From Bacteroidales bacterium (GTDB taxonomy: Bacteria > Bacteroidota > Bacteroidia > Bacteroidales > F082), in assembly GCA_019454985.1 (NCBI GenBank), contig JACFNF010000007.1, forward strand, positions 62,001 to 126,000: a stretch of DNA of 64,000 nt. Reading direction: 5' to 3'. Position numbers and translations under genes: made by a program. How positions within the stretch are numbered: the stretch's first letter is position 1; every line of letters starts with the position of its first letter. Under the pieces are notes generated by a model that saw nothing but the letters and a program-made list of their open reading frames with translations, was not told where the DNA came from and searched no databases. Below, in pieces: positions 26,687 through 62,366 of the stretch.

Positions 26687-26812
26687 CAGCACGAAAGTGA
26701 ACATCTGCGCCTTTCAGTGGTTTTAAGTAGAAAAAACAGTGGAAGCCGGATATACGGGGCACTATAAAGAGTGAAGGATTTTGTTTAACTGTCTAACAAT
26801 GACCAATCGGTG

Positions 26813-28063
26813 ATGGCTCAGCCAAACAGCAAAGGGATTTTAAGTGGCATCAAGGTTTTGGAGTTTGCCAGTGTGCTGGCGGGACCCGGCGTAGGTGCCG
26901 CCTTAGCCGAACTTGGTGCATCGGTTGTGAAAGTTGAGAATCTGTCAACGAAAGGCGACACCACACGTAGCTGGAAGCTGCAAACCGAAGACCAGAACAA
27001 CGATATTTCGGCCTACTTCAGTTGTGCAAACTGGGGTAAACGCTCTTTGGCAATTGACCTGAAAAAGCCCAAAGCTCTTGATCTCATCTATCAGATAGTC
27101 GCAAAAACGGATATCGTCATCGCAAGCTATAAGCCCGGAGATGCCGAGAAGCTAAAAGTAGATTACACCAGCTTGAAAGCATTACATCCCTCTTTGATTT
27201 ATGCACACCTAACGGGTTACGGTTTGGGAAACGACCGAGCTGGTTATGATGCCATCCTTCAGGCAGAGGCCGGATTCACTTTCATCAATGGAGAGCCGGG
27301 CAGCAAGCCAATCAAAATGCCGGTCGCACTGATAGATATCTTGGCCGGACATCAGATGAAAGAAGCCATTTTGCTGGCTTTACTGAAAAAGGAGCGAACC
27401 GGTGCCGGCAACTATGTCGAGGTTTCATTATTCAGAAGTGCCCTGAGTTCTTTGGCCAATCAAGCAACCAACTGGCTTGTTGCCAATACTATACCACAAG
27501 CTTCAGGCTCCGACCATCCCAATATTGTACCTTACGGAACACTTTTTTACACTTCCGATCAGAAACCGATTGTGCTGGCAGTTGGTACCGACAAGCAATT
27601 TAAAAGCCTTTGCGAAATACTTGACATTGAACATATTGCCACAGACGAACATTTTTCCGATAACCCTTCGCGGGTAAAACATCGGTCAGCGCTGAATGAG
27701 ATTCTGAAAGGGCAGATTGCAAAGGTGAAGCGCGATGACCTGCTGCATCGCCTGCATCGGCAAAAAGTTCCTGCCGGAGGGGTTTTCAATATGCAGGAGG
27801 TTTTTGAACAGCACGAAGCCCAGTCTATGCTAATAACTGCAAAAGACAAGGCCGGAAAGACTTTGAAAGGGGTAAGTTCTCTTGCCTTTCGGATAAAAGA
27901 CGAGTCCTTTGGCATTGAGCCTGTGCGCCCGCCCCATTTTGGCGAACACAGCATTGAAATTTTGAAAGAATTTACACATTTAACAGACCAACAAATCGAA
28001 ACACTGCTTAACACTCAAACAATCTATGACCGAAACTTCACAGAAACAGATGGCCTTTATTGA
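26813..28063 (+). CDS. Family III (CaiB/BaiF) CoA-transferase
   Basis: A 416-residue family III CoA-transferase. The N-terminal signature GIKVLEFASVLAGPGVGAALAELGASVVKVE, the conserved SAYFSCANWGKRSLAIDLK and VIASYKPGDAEKL are typical. The catalytic Asp is expected in VALIDILAGHQ (Asp175 from this start), as for Asp169 of formyl-CoA transferase. It moves CoA between two carboxylates through an aspartyl-CoA intermediate; substrates unknown. A GTG directly precedes the ATG in frame; the ATG is preferred. Its 3' end overlaps the oxidoreductase alpha gene by 38 nt if that gene starts at 28026. Coupled expression implies that it acts on the product or precursor of that enzyme. Confidence 0.9.
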   Translation: MAQPNSKGILSGIKVLEFASVLAGPGVGAALAELGASVVKVENLSTKGDTTRSWKLQTEDQNNDISAYFSCANWGKRSLAIDLKKPKALDLIYQIVAKTDIVIASYKPGDAEKLKVDYTSLKALHPSLIYAHLTGYGLGNDRAGYDAILQAEAGFTFINGEPGSKPIKMPVALIDILAGHQMKEAILLALLKKERTGAGNYVEVSLFRSALSSLANQATNWLVANTIPQASGSDHPNIVPYGTLFYTSDQKPIVLAVGTDKQFKSLCEILDIEHIATDEHFSDNPSRVKHRSALNEILKGQIAKVKRDDLLHRLHRQKVPAGGVFNMQEVFEQHEAQSMLITAKDKAGKTLKGVSSLAFRIKDESFGIEPVRPPHFGEHSIEILKEFTHLTDQQIETLLNTQTIYDRNFTETDGLY

Positions 28064-29153
28064 CGGCTCACGCCTCATCATTGAGGCCAGCGTCAGGGCA
28101 GGCGCCGGGGTGTATATTGGCTATCCCATCACACCGGCCAACCTGTTGTATTCATATGCCAATCAGCGCTTCCCGGCCATGTTGGCTGCTCCCGACGAAA
28201 TCACAGCCTTGCAGTGGATGTCGGGCTATGCCAGCTTAGGGATCCTTCCGGTGACTGCAACTGCGTTTCCGGGTTATTCACTGATGATAGAATCCATCAA
28301 TATGGCCATGATGATGGAACTCCCGATGGTGATCATTCTGGCTCAACGTTTAGGTCCGGCCACCGGAACCGCCACTGCCGGCGCTCAAGGCGATATCGCC
28401 GTTGTTCACGGAACGGTTTCAGGCGGATATCCTCTGCCCACTTTTTGTATTTCTAACTTAGACGACTGTTGGGAATTGACTGAAAAAGCCGTTAAAACAG
28501 CCATCTCGTTGCGAACACCTGTCGTTCTGCTCAGCTCAAAAGAAATGATTATGACACAGATGAGCTACGATCTGAGTAAGTTAAGCGAGATTAGCCCAGC
28601 TGTCTGGAAACATTTTGACGGCGTTTCCGATTTTAAACCCTACGAAACCGACGAATCATTAATTCCGGATTTTTTACCCCTAAGCCAAAATAAACATCAG
28701 GTGAGATTTACGGCTAGTACCCATAATAAAGAAGGGATCTTGCAAAACACAACCCCCGAAGCACTTGCCAACAGCAGCCGCTTAAAAGCCAAAATTGAGA
28801 AACATGCCGAATCGTTTCTCTACTATGATTTTGACCATCAGCAAGGGGCCGATACTGTGGTAATGAGTTTCGACATTACGGCGCAGGCAGCCCGGGAAGC
28901 CGTTCAAAGATTGAGAAGCGAAGGCCGGAAAGTGTCGCTGCTTATAGCCAAAACCCTTTTCCCAATACCGGAGAAATACCATGAAATCTTAGATACGTTC
29001 AGCAAAGTTGTCATTGCCGAAGAAAACCTTGGCGGACAATACCGTCATCTGCTTTTTGGCAGCCAGATCCCGTCCCATATCAAAGGAGTGAACGCCATCG
29101 GCAGAATGATTCAACCAGAAGAAATCATGAAGGAGGTAAAGAGCAATGGATAA
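28026..29153 (+). CDS. 2-oxoacid:ferredoxin oxidoreductase, alpha subunit (KorA/PorA-like)
   Basis: A 375-residue alpha subunit: pyrimidine-binding thiamine domain beginning GAGVYIGYPITPANLLYSYA (with the conserved YPITP). ALQWMSGYASLGILPVTATAFPGYSLMIESI, LAQRLGPATGTATAGAQGDI and a C-terminal transketolase-like domain (VVMSFDITAQAAREAVQRLR) follow. No fused gamma domain or ferredoxin module is present. With the beta-gamma protein it would oxidatively decarboxylate a 2-oxoacid to acyl-CoA, reducing ferredoxin, or run in reverse. An alternative start is Met9 (28050), which would shrink the overlap with the CoA-transferase gene to 14 nt. The gene overlaps its downstream partner by 8 nt. Confidence 0.88.
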   Translation: MTETSQKQMAFIDGSRLIIEASVRAGAGVYIGYPITPANLLYSYANQRFPAMLAAPDEITALQWMSGYASLGILPVTATAFPGYSLMIESINMAMMMELPMVIILAQRLGPATGTATAGAQGDIAVVHGTVSGGYPLPTFCISNLDDCWELTEKAVKTAISLRTPVVLLSSKEMIMTQMSYDLSKLSEISPAVWKHFDGVSDFKPYETDESLIPDFLPLSQNKHQVRFTASTHNKEGILQNTTPEALANSSRLKAKIEKHAESFLYYDFDHQQGADTVVMSFDITAQAAREAVQRLRSEGRKVSLLIAKTLFPIPEKYHEILDTFSKVVIAEENLGGQYRHLLFGSQIPSHIKGVNAIGRMIQPEEIMKEVKSNG

Positions 29154-30423
29154 CCGTTTTTTAACTGACAACAGAGACCTTCCATTTTGCAAAGGTTGCG
29201 GCCACACCGGCATCGCTACCTGCACCGAGAGAGCTTTACAAAAATTAGGCTTCGATCCGTTGGACGTAATTTTTGTGACTGATATCGGCTGTCATGGCAT
29301 CATTGACAAGTCGTTGCGTTCGCACACCGTTCACGGGCTTCATGGCCGTTCGGTAGCTTTGGCCGGAGGCATTGCTGCAGGTCTGGGGCAACGCTCCGAC
29401 AAGAAAGTGATTGTTTTTATCGGCGATGGCGGGGCTACCATCGGCATGCAGCACTTACTTGTAGCCGCCCATCACAACTTCCCGATGACAGTGGTCATCC
29501 ACAACAACATGCTTTATGGCATGACAGGCGGCCAACCCAGCGAGTTCACCCCAACAGGGTTCAACACGCCGGCGATCCAGCGTTCGGCAGCAGGCGCCAT
29601 TGATATGGTAAAGTTGATGGAAGCCGCCGGCGCCACCTATGTCAGCCGCCTCACCGGTATTGGCGACTTCACGGATGCCCTTGCTGAAGCATTTGCCCAT
29701 CCGGGATTTTCAGTTGTTGAAGTGATGGAAATATGTACCAGCTATGGCGTAAAATCAAATCCCGGCATGAAGCTGAAACAGGTAGTGGAAGCCGCTGGAC
29801 TACATCCATACAAAAATATTCGACCTTCAAATACATCAGATCATGCCTTTGAAGCCTATTCGGGCTATCAAAACAGCCTGATCACCGATAAGCTCAAAGT
29901 GGAAAAGGAGTTTGAACCGGTTATCAAAGGAACGGTTCGTATTTTGCTCAGCGGCTCGGCCAGCGAAGGCGTGCAGTCGGCAGCCGAGTTTTTAGCCCGC
30001 ACGGCGATGATGTCGGGGCTTTTTTCAACTAAAAAAGGACACTATCCGGTTACTGTGGGTGTAGGCTTCTCAGTTGCTGAAGTCATTATTTCTGATCAGC
30101 CGATTTTCTACACTGGATCCACACATCCTGATTTTATGGTGATTACGTCGAAAGATGGACTTGACTACGCGATGCCGCGTATCAAAAATGCCATTGACTC
30201 AGTGGTGATTCTCGACAGCACACTCGAGGCGCCCGAAACCAAAGCCCGTATCGTTACGGCCGACCTCAGGGCAATGGCGGGTTCGCGCAATGTTGCCATG
30301 ATGAGTATTTTCTGGCTGATCCATAACTACGGCATACTTTCCGAAGAGTCGCTGCACACGGCCTATGGCCGAAACAAACTTTCAGCAAAGGTGCCTATCT
30401 CCACGTTTACGGATAAACTATAA
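29146..30423 (+). CDS. 2-oxoacid:ferredoxin oxidoreductase, fused beta-gamma subunit
   Basis: 425 residues. Residues 1-235 form the thiamine-diphosphate-binding beta subunit: CxxC in PFCKGCGH (Cys15, Cys18), Cys49 in DIGCHG and Cys197 in MEICTSYG supply the four ligands of the proximal 4Fe-4S cluster. The TPP motif is IGDGGATIG with Asn120-Asn121, then YGMTGGQ, characteristic of KorB. Residues about 263-425 resemble the gamma subunit (RILLSGSASEGVQSAAEFLA, HYPVTVGVGFSVAEVIIS, DSVVILDST), which is normally a separate gene or fused to alpha. No delta (2x4Fe-4S) subunit is adjacent. Substrate is not predictable from sequence; pyruvate, 2-oxoglutarate, branched-chain or aryl 2-oxoacids are all possible. 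Confidence 0.85.
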   Translation: MDNRFLTDNRDLPFCKGCGHTGIATCTERALQKLGFDPLDVIFVTDIGCHGIIDKSLRSHTVHGLHGRSVALAGGIAAGLGQRSDKKVIVFIGDGGATIGMQHLLVAAHHNFPMTVVIHNNMLYGMTGGQPSEFTPTGFNTPAIQRSAAGAIDMVKLMEAAGATYVSRLTGIGDFTDALAEAFAHPGFSVVEVMEICTSYGVKSNPGMKLKQVVEAAGLHPYKNIRPSNTSDHAFEAYSGYQNSLITDKLKVEKEFEPVIKGTVRILLSGSASEGVQSAAEFLARTAMMSGLFSTKKGHYPVTVGVGFSVAEVIISDQPIFYTGSTHPDFMVITSKDGLDYAMPRIKNAIDSVVILDSTLEAPETKARIVTADLRAMAGSRNVAMMSIFWLIHNYGILSEESLHTAYGRNKLSAKVPISTFTDKL

Positions 30424-30430
30424 CAAGCTA

Positions 30431-31687
30431 TCACAACTTATTGTTGAACATATAGATAGCTCCGAGCAACAGCCTGACGTTATGCGTCAGGCTGTTTTCT
30501 TTCACCTTCCCGAACTCATCGGGATGGCCAAATGAGGCAGCCGTCCATTCCAGCTCACAGGCCAGATTGAGCGGACCAGATCTCCAGGTGATGCCTGGCG
30601 AAACACGAAACATCTGATTGATATTGAGTCCTTTACCAAAATATTGGCCAATATTTCGTGAAGAAGTCCCAAAATTTTTGGCATAACCGGCAAACAATCC
30701 CCATTGAAACTCCTGACCATAATGCATGTCGCCCCAAAGGAAAAGGTGATTCGACGGAGTGTAGGCTTCAATACCGGTCAATGTGTCGCGCGAGGCTACG
30801 GCATAGCCGCCCAACAACAGATGCTCGGTAAGATTTTGTCCGAAAATGGCTTTCATGGCCACATCCGACTTTTTGTTTTTCCATTTCCAGAATGCCATAC
30901 CGGAAAATGAAGAGAGATATTGTTTGTTTTCGAAGTTCAAAGCCGTGACTTTGAGAGGTCTGATCATTTTATGATCGAGCGCTCCACCCACCACAAAATT
31001 TTCATTTTTATAGAAGAGCTGAAGATGGCTGTTTGGAATTCCGGCTTCCTGCATATAAAGATGGCTGCGCCCCAACGGCCCGTCGCTGCTGTTGTCGCGT
31101 TGCATGATGAGGGCAGCAGTCAACACAATCTTCCCTGCAAAATGACGATAGCTGAGCTGGGGGTTTCGGATAAAAGGCTGGAAAGGCGCGCCGGTATTAA
31201 GCGACAAAATATCGGGAAACACCTCCGGAACAAACATCGGATGCCAGTATTGCCCAAGCAGCAACTCGTCATTTGCCCAGTTCATCCGGATATAGGCATG
31301 CCGCAGCCTCAATCCGTTAATGTCAGAATTGGTAACACCCGTAAAATCGCCTTCAACCAGGGCCATTACTTTGGCATGAAGCAATTCCGTTCCGTTGATT
31401 TTGAGTCCAAGACGTGTACTGATAGCACTGAAATTAGCGTTAAGTCCCGCATTGAGGTCATTCCCTGCTAAGTCGTATTGAGGCTCTTTAGGATAAAACA
31501 CAATCAAATCATCGCGAGCGCCATCCACTTTACGGCTATCCACCCAAAAATCACTTTTAACAAAACCATACGCCTCAAAACGCTGTTTCCATGATTTATC
31601 GTCCTGAGCTAAAGCCACTTCCGATAAAACGGTAAATATCAGGAAACTAACCATCAATTTGCTAATCCAAACACTCTTTTGCCTCAT
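30431..31687 (-). CDS. DcaP-like outer-membrane porin/beta-barrel protein
   Basis: A 418-residue barrel protein with a signal peptide (SKLMVSFLIFTVLSEVALAQ) and amphipathic alternating strands up to the C-terminus (LTHNVRLLLGAIYMFNNKL). FEAYGFVKSDFWVDSRKV and ISTRLGLKINGTELLHAKVMALVEGDFTG resemble the DcaP/porin-like families that let small dicarboxylates or aromatics cross the outer membrane. The ATG at 31687 (MRQKSVW) is preferred over 31702 because the promoter puts the transcript start only a few nt before 31702. It converges on the oxidoreductase operon with an 8-nt gap, and its 3' coding end contains that operon's terminator hairpin. Confidence 0.75.
   Translation of the reverse strand: MRQKSVWISKLMVSFLIFTVLSEVALAQDDKSWKQRFEAYGFVKSDFWVDSRKVDGARDDLIVFYPKEPQYDLAGNDLNAGLNANFSAISTRLGLKINGTELLHAKVMALVEGDFTGVTNSDINGLRLRHAYIRMNWANDELLLGQYWHPMFVPEVFPDILSLNTGAPFQPFIRNPQLSYRHFAGKIVLTAALIMQRDNSSDGPLGRSHLYMQEAGIPNSHLQLFYKNENFVVGGALDHKMIRPLKVTALNFENKQYLSSFSGMAFWKWKNKKSDVAMKAIFGQNLTEHLLLGGYAVASRDTLTGIEAYTPSNHLFLWGDMHYGQEFQWGLFAGYAKNFGTSSRNIGQYFGKGLNINQMFRVSPGITWRSGPLNLACELEWTAASFGHPDEFGKVKENSLTHNVRLLLGAIYMFNNKL
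30468..30502 (+). terminator. Terminator of the CoA-transferase/oxidoreductase operon, inside the porin coding sequence
   Basis: A perfect 12-bp stem AACAGCCTGACG/CGTCAGGCTGTT with loop TTATG, followed by TTCTTTC on the plus strand. It lies 45 nt past the operon's last stop codon and encodes NSLTHNVRLL of the porin on the other strand. Confidence 0.7.
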
Positions 31688-49036: not shown

Positions 49037-50533
49037 TCAAGGTAGCTTGAATTCAAGCTTTTGCAGAAACTGTACGCTTTTTTCGATTTCGGGATACATC
49101 ACTTTGTCGTGATCAACAAATACCACCTGTTTACGATATTGAGCCACCAATTCTTCGAGGAGTTCGCTTGATTTCAAGGGGCGACGAAAATCAAGGGCTT
49201 GTGCTGCGTTGAAAAGTTCTATGGCCAAAATGCGTTCCAAATTACACACGACACGCCAGGTGCGAGTTGCTGCATTGGCTCCCATGCTCACATGATCCTC
49301 CTGACCTTGCGATGACTCGATGGAGTCAACCGAAGCGGGTGTGCAAAGTTGTTTGTTTTGGCTCACGATGCCGGCAGCGGTGTATTGCGGAATCATGAAT
49401 CCGGAATTGAGACCCGGCTCAGCCACAAGAAACGAAGGCAGGCCGCGTTTGCCATGCACAAGCTGATAGGTTCGCCTTTCGGAGATATTGCCCAATTCGG
49501 CACAAGCGATGGCCAAATGATCCAAAGCCAAAGCTAATGGCTGCCCGTGAAAATTACCAGCCGAAATAATCAGGTCTTCATCCGGAAAGATGGTTGGATT
49601 GTCGGTTACTGCATTTATTTCGTTGCTTAAAACATCGGACACATATTTCAGGGCATCTTTGGAAGCGCCATGTACCTGAGGCATACAACGGAAACTATAA
49701 GGATCCTGGACATGATTTTTCTTTCGGCCAATGAGCTCGCTGCCCTGAAGTAAAGCACGGATACGGCGGGCGGTTTCTATTTGCCCCTGATGGTGGCGCA
49801 CTCTGTGTACAGATGGAAAGAAAGGCTCAATACGGCCATCAAAAGCATCGAGCGAAAGTGCTCCGATCACATCGGCAAGATCGGAAAGCCTTGTGGCCTT
49901 CAGCAGGCTGTATATTCCATAGGCACTCATAAACTGGGTTCCATTGAGCAGGGCTAAGCCTTCTTTCGACTGAAGCTCGACAGCTTGCCAGCCAAAATGC
50001 TGCAACACTTCGGCAGCCGGCCTCACTTTTCCCTCAAAAAACACTTCGCCTAAACCCAAGAGAGGAAGGCTCAGATGAGCCAATGGTGCGAGGTCGCCAG
50101 AGGCGCCCAAAGAACCCAACTCATAAACAACCGGCAATACATCATGGTTAAAAAAATCAATCAGCCGTTGCACGGTGACCAATTGTACGCCCGAATGACC
50201 ATACGAAAGACTCTGTATTTTCAGTAGCAGCATCAGTTTCACTATCTCGCGCGGTACTTCTTCGCCTGTGCCGCAGGCATGCGACATCACTAAGTTTTTT
50301 TGCAGTGCACCCAAATCGCTTTTGGAAATGCTTTTATCGCAAAGCGAACCAAAGCCGGTTGTAATACCATAGATAGGTTCGGAGGACGACTCGATCTTTT
50401 GGTCGAGATAGGTGCGGCAAGCCTGAATTTTTTGTGCAGCCTCATCCGAAAGCTGTAAACGGAAGTTCTGGCTGAGGATATCGGAAATTTGCTGAAACTG
50501 AAGTTCTTCGCTGGAAATATAATGTGTTTTCAT
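49037..50533 (-). CDS. hutH: Histidine ammonia-lyase
   Basis: A 498-residue lyase that converts L-histidine to urocanate and ammonia. The MIO prosthetic group forms from Ala144-Ser145-Gly146 in LGSLGASGDLAPLAHLSLPL. Other active-site markers are PIYGITTGFGSLCD (Tyr55), MSHACGTGEEVP (His86), SFRCMPQVHGASKDAL and ENQ-like GQEDHVSMGANAA. All expected residues are present. The ATG at 50533 gives the family N-terminus; the frame extends to 50629 but with unconvincing sequence. No hutU, hutI or hutG gene is nearby, so the rest of the pathway must be encoded elsewhere. It lies 160 nt downstream of hisS. Confidence 0.95.
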   Translation of the reverse strand: MKTHYISSEELQFQQISDILSQNFRLQLSDEAAQKIQACRTYLDQKIESSSEPIYGITTGFGSLCDKSISKSDLGALQKNLVMSHACGTGEEVPREIVKLMLLLKIQSLSYGHSGVQLVTVQRLIDFFNHDVLPVVYELGSLGASGDLAPLAHLSLPLLGLGEVFFEGKVRPAAEVLQHFGWQAVELQSKEGLALLNGTQFMSAYGIYSLLKATRLSDLADVIGALSLDAFDGRIEPFFPSVHRVRHHQGQIETARRIRALLQGSELIGRKKNHVQDPYSFRCMPQVHGASKDALKYVSDVLSNEINAVTDNPTIFPDEDLIISAGNFHGQPLALALDHLAIACAELGNISERRTYQLVHGKRGLPSFLVAEPGLNSGFMIPQYTAAGIVSQNKQLCTPASVDSIESSQGQEDHVSMGANAATRTWRVVCNLERILAIELFNAAQALDFRRPLKSSELLEELVAQYRKQVVFVDHDKVMYPEIEKSVQFLQKLEFKLP

Positions 50534-50693
50534 GAAATTACTAAAATAAACGATTGATATGTAAGTGATTAAGTCAATGTTTTTCTTGGTCGTTTTACCA
50601 AAAGCAAGTTTGGGGAAGTGGGAGCTCAACTAAACAAGGCTTTCCGGTTGACTTTAATCAGGAAACAAATCATCCATTGCATAGACGAAATTT

Positions 50694-61271: not shown

Positions 61272-62366
61272 ATGAAACAAAGCAAAAACGCCGAAACGGC
61301 ATTAAAAGTCAACGAAGGCATTCCTCAGCCCGATTCTTTAAACCCTCAGGCGATTGAGCGGTTGAAATCAAAACGCAGTGGTATTTTACCCGCCTCCGAA
61401 TACATCAAGGGTATTCTTGAGGGCGATATCATGCTGCTTAGCAAGGCCATCACACTGATTGAAAGTGCGTTACCCGCACACCAACAGGTGGCCCAACAGG
61501 TGATTGCTGCTTGTCTTCCACATTCGGGCAAAGCCGTTCGTTTGGGGATTACCGGCGTTCCGGGAGCCGGCAAAAGTACGTTTATCGAGGCCATTGGCAT
61601 GCATCTGACCGGAAAGGGTCACAAAGTGGCTGTGTTGGCCATTGATCCCAGCAGTCAACGTTCGGGTGGCAGCATCTTGGGCGACAAAACCCGTATGGAG
61701 CGCTTAGCCATTCATCCTTCGGCTTATATCCGCCCCTCGGCATCGGCCGGAACTCTGGGCGGTGTAGCCCGAAAAACGCGTGAAAGCATCATCCTGTGCG
61801 AAGCAGCCGGATTCGATACCATCATTGTGGAAACCGTTGGCGTAGGCCAATCTGAGATCGCCGTCCATTCTATGGTTGACTTTTTCCTGTTAGTACTCAT
61901 CAGTGGGGCAGGCGACGAACTGCAAGGCATCAAAAGAGGTATCATGGAAATGGCAGATGGTTTTGTGGTAAACAAAGCCGATGGTGATAATATTACTAAG
62001 GCCAATCGTGCCAAAGCTGAGTGTATCAATGCTTTACATCTGTTTCCGGCAGCCGCTTCCGGAGTTGAGCCCAAAGTGCTCACCTGCTCTGCACTCGAAG
62101 GAACCGGCATTGCCGAAGTATGGGGAATGATTAGCGAATACATGACCACAACCCGCCAAAATGGTTTTCTGGAGCAAAAACGACTGATGCAGGCCGTCGA
62201 AATGATGCACGACAGCATCAGGCAACGGCTTTTTGAAAGTTTTTATCAAAATGGCGATATTCAATCGTTAATCCCAAAACTCGAAAATGCAATCCGCAAC
62301 CAGTCGTTAAGTCCTTATATTGCGGCATCACAACTGCTCGACATTTACTTCCGGCCAACAAAATAA
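61272..62366 (+). CDS. meaB: Methylmalonyl-CoA mutase-associated GTPase MeaB
   Basis: A 364-residue G3E-family GTPase (ArgK/MeaB). Motifs are ITGVPGAGKSTFIEAIGMHL (Walker A), LAIDPSSQRSGGSILGDKTRM (base-specific and switch region), TIIVETVGVGQSEIAVHSMVD (Walker B/switch II), NKADGDN (guanine specificity) and a C-terminal dimerisation arm. It protects and reloads adenosylcobalamin on methylmalonyl-CoA mutase. The mutase genes are not adjacent; the adenosyltransferase that makes the cofactor lies at 21.2-21.7 kb. Transcribed alone and convergent with the flippase-like gene. Confidence 0.95.
   Translation: MKQSKNAETALKVNEGIPQPDSLNPQAIERLKSKRSGILPASEYIKGILEGDIMLLSKAITLIESALPAHQQVAQQVIAACLPHSGKAVRLGITGVPGAGKSTFIEAIGMHLTGKGHKVAVLAIDPSSQRSGGSILGDKTRMERLAIHPSAYIRPSASAGTLGGVARKTRESIILCEAAGFDTIIVETVGVGQSEIAVHSMVDFFLLVLISGAGDELQGIKRGIMEMADGFVVNKADGDNITKANRAKAECINALHLFPAAASGVEPKVLTCSALEGTGIAEVWGMISEYMTTTRQNGFLEQKRLMQAVEMMHDSIRQRLFESFYQNGDIQSLIPKLENAIRNQSLSPYIAASQLLDIYFRPTK

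Follow-up and report, generated by a model that had tools for sequence, protein, structure and literature searches.

2-Oxoacid:ferredoxin oxidoreductases (OFORs) are reversible enzymes that bind thiamine pyrophosphate (TPP) at the alpha/beta interface, release CO2 from the substrate, pass two electrons via the [4Fe-4S] cluster of the beta subunit to ferredoxin and transfer the acyl group to CoA. Four types are familiar, acting on pyruvate, 2-oxoglutarate, branched-chain and aryl 2-oxoacids. We describe here a three-gene operon in a 64,000-nucleotide stretch of a Bacteroidales genome (contig JACFNF010000007.1, positions 62,001 to 126,000; hereafter the window) that encodes a CoA-transferase, an OFOR alpha subunit and a beta subunit fused to gamma (betagamma). 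It is quite probable that alpha and betagamma form a 2-oxoadipate:ferredoxin oxidoreductase whose product is glutaryl-CoA, and that the CoA-transferase moves CoA between glutarate and a second acid. Among the described systems, OorDABC of Helicobacter and Campylobacter (PDB 8ys5) shares the alpha, beta and gamma domains and the beta cysteine ligands, and it gave the best profile and fold matches. In OorDABC, however, gamma (OorC) is a protein of its own and a delta subunit (OorD) is present, whereas in the window gamma forms the C-terminal part of the beta protein, delta is absent and GCSGR of OorB reads GCHGI. The (alpha-beta)2 enzymes StOFOR1/2 of Sulfolobus and the 2-oxoglutarate:ferredoxin oxidoreductase (OGOR) of Magnetococcus are similar in having two polypeptides, no ferredoxin domain, one beta [4Fe-4S] cluster and the YPITP and Arg motifs. 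Their gamma domain (III) is carried by alpha in the order III-I-II (PMC5020499), in contrast to VI-III in the window. The 2-oxoadipate dehydrogenase (DHTKD1 E1 with lipoyl E2/E3) has the predicted substrate, the acyl-CoA product and TPP chemistry in common, but it is an unrelated lipoamide/NAD complex, whereas ferredoxin is the expected acceptor here. The operon comprises the following features.

26810..28063, + strand: family III (CaiB/BaiF) CoA-transferase, 417 aa; PF02515 (CoA_transf_3), 308.8 bits
27335..27337, + strand: codon of the probable nucleophilic Asp, D176 counted from GTG (VALIDILAG), aligned with 4ed9
28026..29153, + strand: OFOR alpha subunit, domains I-II, 375 aa; POR_N 103.7 bits, PFOR_II 35.2 bits (Pfam)
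28122..28136, + strand: YPITP motif of alpha, residues 33-37, from the sequence; invariant in 13 alpha homologs
29146..30423, + strand: fused OFOR beta-gamma subunit, 425 aa; TPP_enzyme_C and POR gamma (Pfam), AlphaFold2/Foldseek
29146..29775, + strand: beta domain (VI), residues 1-210; C15, C18, C49, C197 and GDGG/NN TPP motif
29932..30420, + strand: gamma domain (III), residues 263-425; PF01558, solved gamma subunits by profile and fold

All three genes lie on the plus strand, and the open reading frames overlap by 38 nt (CoA-transferase/alpha) and 8 nt (alpha/betagamma), as tightly as an earlier sequence-only reading of this DNA had claimed. That reading placed the end of the operon at 30502, which is 79 nt beyond the last stop; the operon ends at 30423. 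The CoA-transferase may start at GTG 26810 or ATG 26813, the latter being likelier.

Alpha carries no gamma part and aligns over its full length with the solved KOR/OGOR alpha chains 1yd7, 6n2n and 8ys5. It retains the YPITP motif (Y33-P37), which has a catalytic role in OFORs (PMC5020499), and the carboxylate-binding Arg (R108), both of which mark the superfamily. In betagamma, TPP_enzyme_C matches residues 46-193 (100.6 bits, Pfam), and C15, C18, C49 and C197, the [4Fe-4S] ligands, are not only intact, as had been noted, but invariant in 82 aligned rows. The superfamily features of beta domain VI (TPP motif, four cysteines) and of gamma domain III are therefore all present. The sequence-only reading had staked the fusion on a gamma-family match of residues 263-425. 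Such a match is found with POR gamma (PF01558; residues 273-375, 33.7 bits, cutoff 27.4), with NCBIfam gamma models in the same C-terminal region (E = 2.3e-8) and with a 40-member whole-betagamma profile, the C-terminal half of which finds gamma subunits of known structure, 3on3 (5.8e-9) and OorC of H. pylori, 8ys5_B (1.4e-7). An AlphaFold2 model (pLDDT 91.4, pTM 0.82) points the same way, since Foldseek retrieves OorB/StOFOR beta chains on the one hand and gamma subunits of known structure on the other (TM by target 0.68-0.73). The proposed boundary is a fair one, as the first gamma strand of the model begins at residue 263. The beta-gamma fusion is thus borne out, and so is the absence of delta, in that there is no Fer4/delta (ferredoxin-like) domain. 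Alpha and betagamma most likely belong to the OFOR superfamily, with CoA- and ferredoxin-dependent oxidative decarboxylation as the predicted activity.

The CoA-transferase has the hallmarks of family III, namely the CoA_transf_3 match and an active-site Asp (D176) lined up with the Asp stretch of 4ed9, which is presumably the catalytic nucleophile. Its solved relatives include human SUGCT (9br6, PDB). The best NCBIfam model is that of succinate--glutarate CoA-transferase (NF052585), at 300.7 bits and 112 bits above the next, and it is this ranking that likens the enzyme to SUGCT and its bacterial counterparts; the difference is that the score falls short of the equivalog cutoff of 750 bits. 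We infer that the enzyme swaps CoA between glutarate and another acid, the direction and partner acid included. Its glutarate/glutaryl-CoA specificity is predicted from one line of evidence, the genomic linkage to glutaryl-CoA dehydrogenase (GCDH).

Sampling 296 genomes of the phylum gave a full-length betagamma match in 14, the window genome included, and a genome-wide scan returned at least 497 confirmed relatives, not all of them shown to be fused. From the 80 best betagamma loci, 74 gave a usable row for the tree and the neighbourhood counts (loci are numbered with the prefix L). These alpha plus fused betagamma loci span about 13 phyla, with carriers in Bacteroidota, Ignavibacteriota, Chloroflexota, Acidobacteriota, Fermentibacterota, Planctomycetota, Spirochaetota, a Thermoplasmata metagenome-assembled genome (MAG) and others, and alpha lies directly upstream of betagamma in nearly all of them. 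Gamma had been described as normally separate or fused to alpha, the latter as in the order III-I-II of Sulfolobus (PMC5020499). The known layouts do differ from the one found here, but with 74 loci the beta-gamma fusion is not singular. The CoA-transferase stands directly upstream of alpha-betagamma in 25 of the 74 loci, preceded by an SSF-family symporter in 22 of these 25, and an overlapping sample of the window's order shows the CoA-transferase linkage in about half. The supposed coupling of a CoA-transferase to one 2-oxoacid enzyme, which would have fallen had the genes been unlinked in relatives, is supported by this recurrence; the three-gene order is nevertheless optional, as elsewhere the alpha-betagamma pair comes with GCDH, with only the SSF or with phosphotransbutyrylase-/butyrate-kinase-type (Ptb/Buk) genes. 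The latter occur near SSF-alpha-betagamma operons without CoA-transferase, as if standing in for it. A single-gene alpha-beta-gamma fusion considered at L105 was rejected, the N-terminal 354 aa having no alpha match in that frame. L037-L048 (for example L040:8325-9647, L043:8445-9812) form a second, more distant beta-gamma-fusion clade with QKNDNPVTQ in gamma in place of KKGxYPVTVG; no GCDH or CoA-transferase was recognised alongside, and the substrate may differ. A third alpha plus betagamma pair (L053:6964-9767, genome G001; 464 and 471 aa) is only 24-26% identical and has a VOR-like YGMTGGQMAPTT motif; the fusion may have more than one origin.

Genomic context points to the substrate. In 12 loci a GCDH adjoins the alpha-betagamma pair. 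In L059, the tested member, this acyl-CoA dehydrogenase scores 457 bits to solved GCDHs and 256 to the next family, and the adjacent enzyme keeps the GCDH-type Arg/Ser and Tyr-Glu residues, which we take to be the glutarate-binding and catalytic ones. The acyl-CoA dehydrogenase of the 12 loci is thus a predicted true GCDH. We rejected the view that all acyl-CoA dehydrogenase neighbours are one enzyme, those of L065, L068, L113, L122, L124, L125, L130 and L131 being other acyl-CoA dehydrogenases. Two loci are especially telling; they came from the overlapping sample of the order and from inspecting one Planctomycetota genome in more detail. L202 carries thiolase, acyl-CoA dehydrogenase, GCDH, SSF, CoA-transferase, alpha and betagamma on a single strand, and in L194/L108 the order SSF-CoA-transferase-alpha-betagamma is followed by saccharopine dehydrogenase (SDH), which starts about 17 nt past betagamma. 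In the tree, the window betagamma falls in a 26-row clade (SH-aLRT 100) that holds 11 GCDH-linked enzymes, and within it CoA-transferase and GCDH contexts alternate, as would follow if the two enzymes work on a common product. Of 295 genomes from the order, 21 carry betagamma; GCDH accompanies it in 14 of these versus 44 of the 274 others (Fisher p = 1.2e-6), and SDH in 20 versus 140 (p = 2.9e-5), the SDH count mixing two sequence types. The 24 genomes with the CoA-transferase operon include 20 with SDH, only 6 with GCDH and 15 with SDH but without GCDH; MAG incompleteness may explain some of the absences.

A further link is provided by three loci with genes resembling those of homocitrate metabolism:

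L036:5304-8435; L055:7293-13253; L076:3-3287: homoaconitase-/homoisocitrate-dehydrogenase-like genes beside the OFOR

In L036, a protein of the isocitrate dehydrogenase (ICDH) family has SPIVxLR instead of the ICDH-type S-x-N and scores best, although below cutoff, as homoisocitrate dehydrogenase, and its aconitase-family neighbour passes the homoaconitase cutoff (883 versus 530 bits). L055 and L076 carry homologs of the dehydrogenase and also have GCDH in the neighbourhood, and a homocitrate-synthase-like gene, below cutoff, is found in two of the three genomes (L036 and L076). A homocitrate route could feed glutaryl-CoA formation in these three. We set aside a reading of the alpha-betagamma pair as a plain KOR, suggested by the ICDH- and aconitase-family genes of L036, in view of SPIVxLR, the score for homoaconitase and the links to GCDH and SDH. 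With the functions predicted here, the GCDH, SDH and homocitrate-type links all converge on 2-oxoadipate or glutaryl-CoA. L076 also has a CstA-like transporter between these neighbouring genes.

The window's own genome contains a GCDH that is 81% identical to that of L059, and an SDH (PF16653, 262 bits) beside an AlaDh/PNT-type protein that we read as lysine-ketoglutarate reductase (LKR), on a contig that also bears enoyl-CoA hydratase, 3-hydroxyacyl-CoA dehydrogenase and thiolase genes. It further encodes PFOR (1860 bits), a gamma-alpha KOR (635 bits, above its family cutoff), IOR and a three-subunit OFOR, which was read by eye as VOR-type and has no NCBIfam match at 1e-40. The window enzyme is thus a fifth OFOR, in a genome that appears to cover the usual four substrates already. 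No close SSF or SSF remnant was found upstream in the window or elsewhere in this genome, and no homoisocitrate dehydrogenase in the genome, both searches being made with no positive control. The gamma-alpha KOR (L004, C104 of this genome) is divergent to the 2-oxoglutarate dehydrogenase (OGDH) E1 gene, so that both routes of 2-oxoglutarate oxidation stand side by side.

The 2-oxoadipate assignment therefore draws on the 12 GCDH-adjoining loci, the L202 operon, SDH in L194/L108 and the co-occurrence, on the ranking of the CoA-transferase, on the homocitrate-type neighbours and homocitrate-synthase-like genes, on the complement of GCDH, LKR, SDH, beta-oxidation genes and four other OFORs in the own genome, and on the clade shared with 11 GCDH-linked enzymes. 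What is shown is the build of the genes and their domains, the recurring genomic links, the co-occurrence and the argument from a fifth OFOR, whereas we infer the substrate, the direction, the CoA donor or acceptor and the subunit stoichiometry. The pathway, left unnamed in the sequence-only reading, can now be proposed to run from lysine via saccharopine and 2-oxoadipate to glutaryl-CoA, and it is probably to be named lysine breakdown via 2-oxoadipate. Lysine would supply 2-oxoadipate by the saccharopine route (LKR, SDH, semialdehyde oxidation and an aminotransferase). In a TPP- and [4Fe-4S]-dependent reaction, 2-oxoadipate, CoA and two oxidised ferredoxins would then yield glutaryl-CoA, CO2 and two reduced ferredoxins. 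The CoA-transferase would hand the CoA of glutaryl-CoA on to an acid, or activate glutarate, with succinate or acetate as possible partners. Glutaryl-CoA may proceed to GCDH and crotonyl-CoA oxidation, all genes for which are present in the own genome; alternatively, glutarate could be released with the thioester conserved.

Several observations weigh against this assignment. The co-occurrence tests ignore phylogeny. The acyl-CoA dehydrogenase/thiolase neighbours of L065-L068 are different ones and could point to other substrates, and six tree rows have SSF without the CoA-transferase, three of them (L114, L119, L126) with Ptb-/Buk-type genes nearby. In the own genome, the window operon, GCDH and LKR/SDH lie on three separate contigs, and the OGDH E1 might act on 2-oxoadipate. 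In StOFOR1, Lys49-beta and Asp468-alpha are needed, as K49I and D468A abolish 2-oxoglutarate activity (PMC5020499). Neither is kept in the window enzyme: the Lys49 position is Ile52, with Ile, Leu or Met in all 76 clade rows, and Asp468 aligns to Ser231 of alpha, which leaves the recognition of a distal carboxylate without explanation. However, KorAB of H. thermophilus uses 2-oxoglutarate although it also lacks Lys49, so that this residue is not strictly required (PMC5020499), and the pocket of the 2-oxoadipate dehydrogenase DHTKD1 is more spacious than that of OGDH (PMC12655727). The loss of Lys49 is hence a caution and not a refutation.

The same position bears on the alternatives. A second 2-oxoglutarate:ferredoxin oxidoreductase, whose CoA-transferase would move CoA from succinyl-CoA and so replace succinyl-CoA synthetase, would suit the OorABC/KOR chains as closest solved relatives and the ICDH- and aconitase-family genes downstream in L036. 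We consider it unlikely, because the basic residue expected of KOR/Oor enzymes at the position of StOFOR Lys49-beta or the OorB Arg is hydrophobic throughout (Ile/Leu/Met), the own genome already holds a gamma-alpha KOR, the L036 genes score best as homoisocitrate dehydrogenase and homoaconitase, and the GCDH and SDH linkage would be left unexplained. The KOR/Oor NCBIfam cutoffs are likewise missed (PRK08659 211 versus 411, PRK11866 129 versus 402, TIGR03710 234 versus 482 bits). A hydrophobic residue at this position is what an oxidoreductase for branched-chain or other hydrophobic 2-oxoacids might have, its acyl-CoA product being freed by the CoA-transferase or, elsewhere, by Ptb/Buk. Ptb-/Buk-type genes near L110, L114, L119 and L126 (L110 and L119 partly by HMM, the others by clustering) are consistent with this, as are, near L068, a thiolase and the N-terminal domain of a methylmalonyl-CoA mutase. 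Yet the own genome already has a VOR-type OFOR, the acyl-CoA dehydrogenase neighbouring the enzymes of the window's clade is a GCDH by residues and score, and SDH is linked as well, which makes such a substrate very improbable.

The enzymes might also run in reverse, with SSF importing glutarate, the CoA-transferase activating it and a reductive carboxylation then giving 2-oxoadipate for lysine synthesis via 2-aminoadipate and saccharopine. OFORs are reversible, symporter and CoA-transferase precede the OFOR genes in many loci, and GCDH is missing from many of these genomes. However, GCDH adjacent in 12 loci and in L202 implies that glutaryl-CoA is oxidised, and the own genome pairs LKR/SDH with beta-oxidation genes; we give reverse operation very little credence.

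The 2-oxoadipate:ferredoxin oxidoreductase proposed here would be a fifth OFOR substrate type, and it would give a function to the betagamma family of 74 loci in many phyla. Anaerobes could then run the animal-type saccharopine pathway of lysine without the lipoamide dehydrogenase complex. In the openly licensed literature we found neither a 2-oxoadipate:ferredoxin oxidoreductase nor a saccharopine-type anaerobic route, which may be described elsewhere; it is probable that known parts are combined here in a less-known order and with a new substrate. The 15 CoA-transferase-operon genomes with SDH and without GCDH hint at a fermentation of lysine to glutarate. In such SSF-CoA-transferase-alpha-betagamma carriers, lysine might be converted via saccharopine, 2-oxoadipate and glutaryl-CoA to glutarate, yielding reduced ferredoxin and a thioester (or ATP via Ptb/Buk) with need for neither oxygen nor GCDH; that the operon is the core of such an undescribed fermentation is an idea that we put forward tentatively. 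It predicts that GCDH-less carriers release glutarate from lysine.

Elsewhere in the window, 49037-50629 and 61272-62366 were recognised by eye as histidine ammonia-lyase and a MeaB-type mutase GTPase, which fits an amino-acid-degrading organism.

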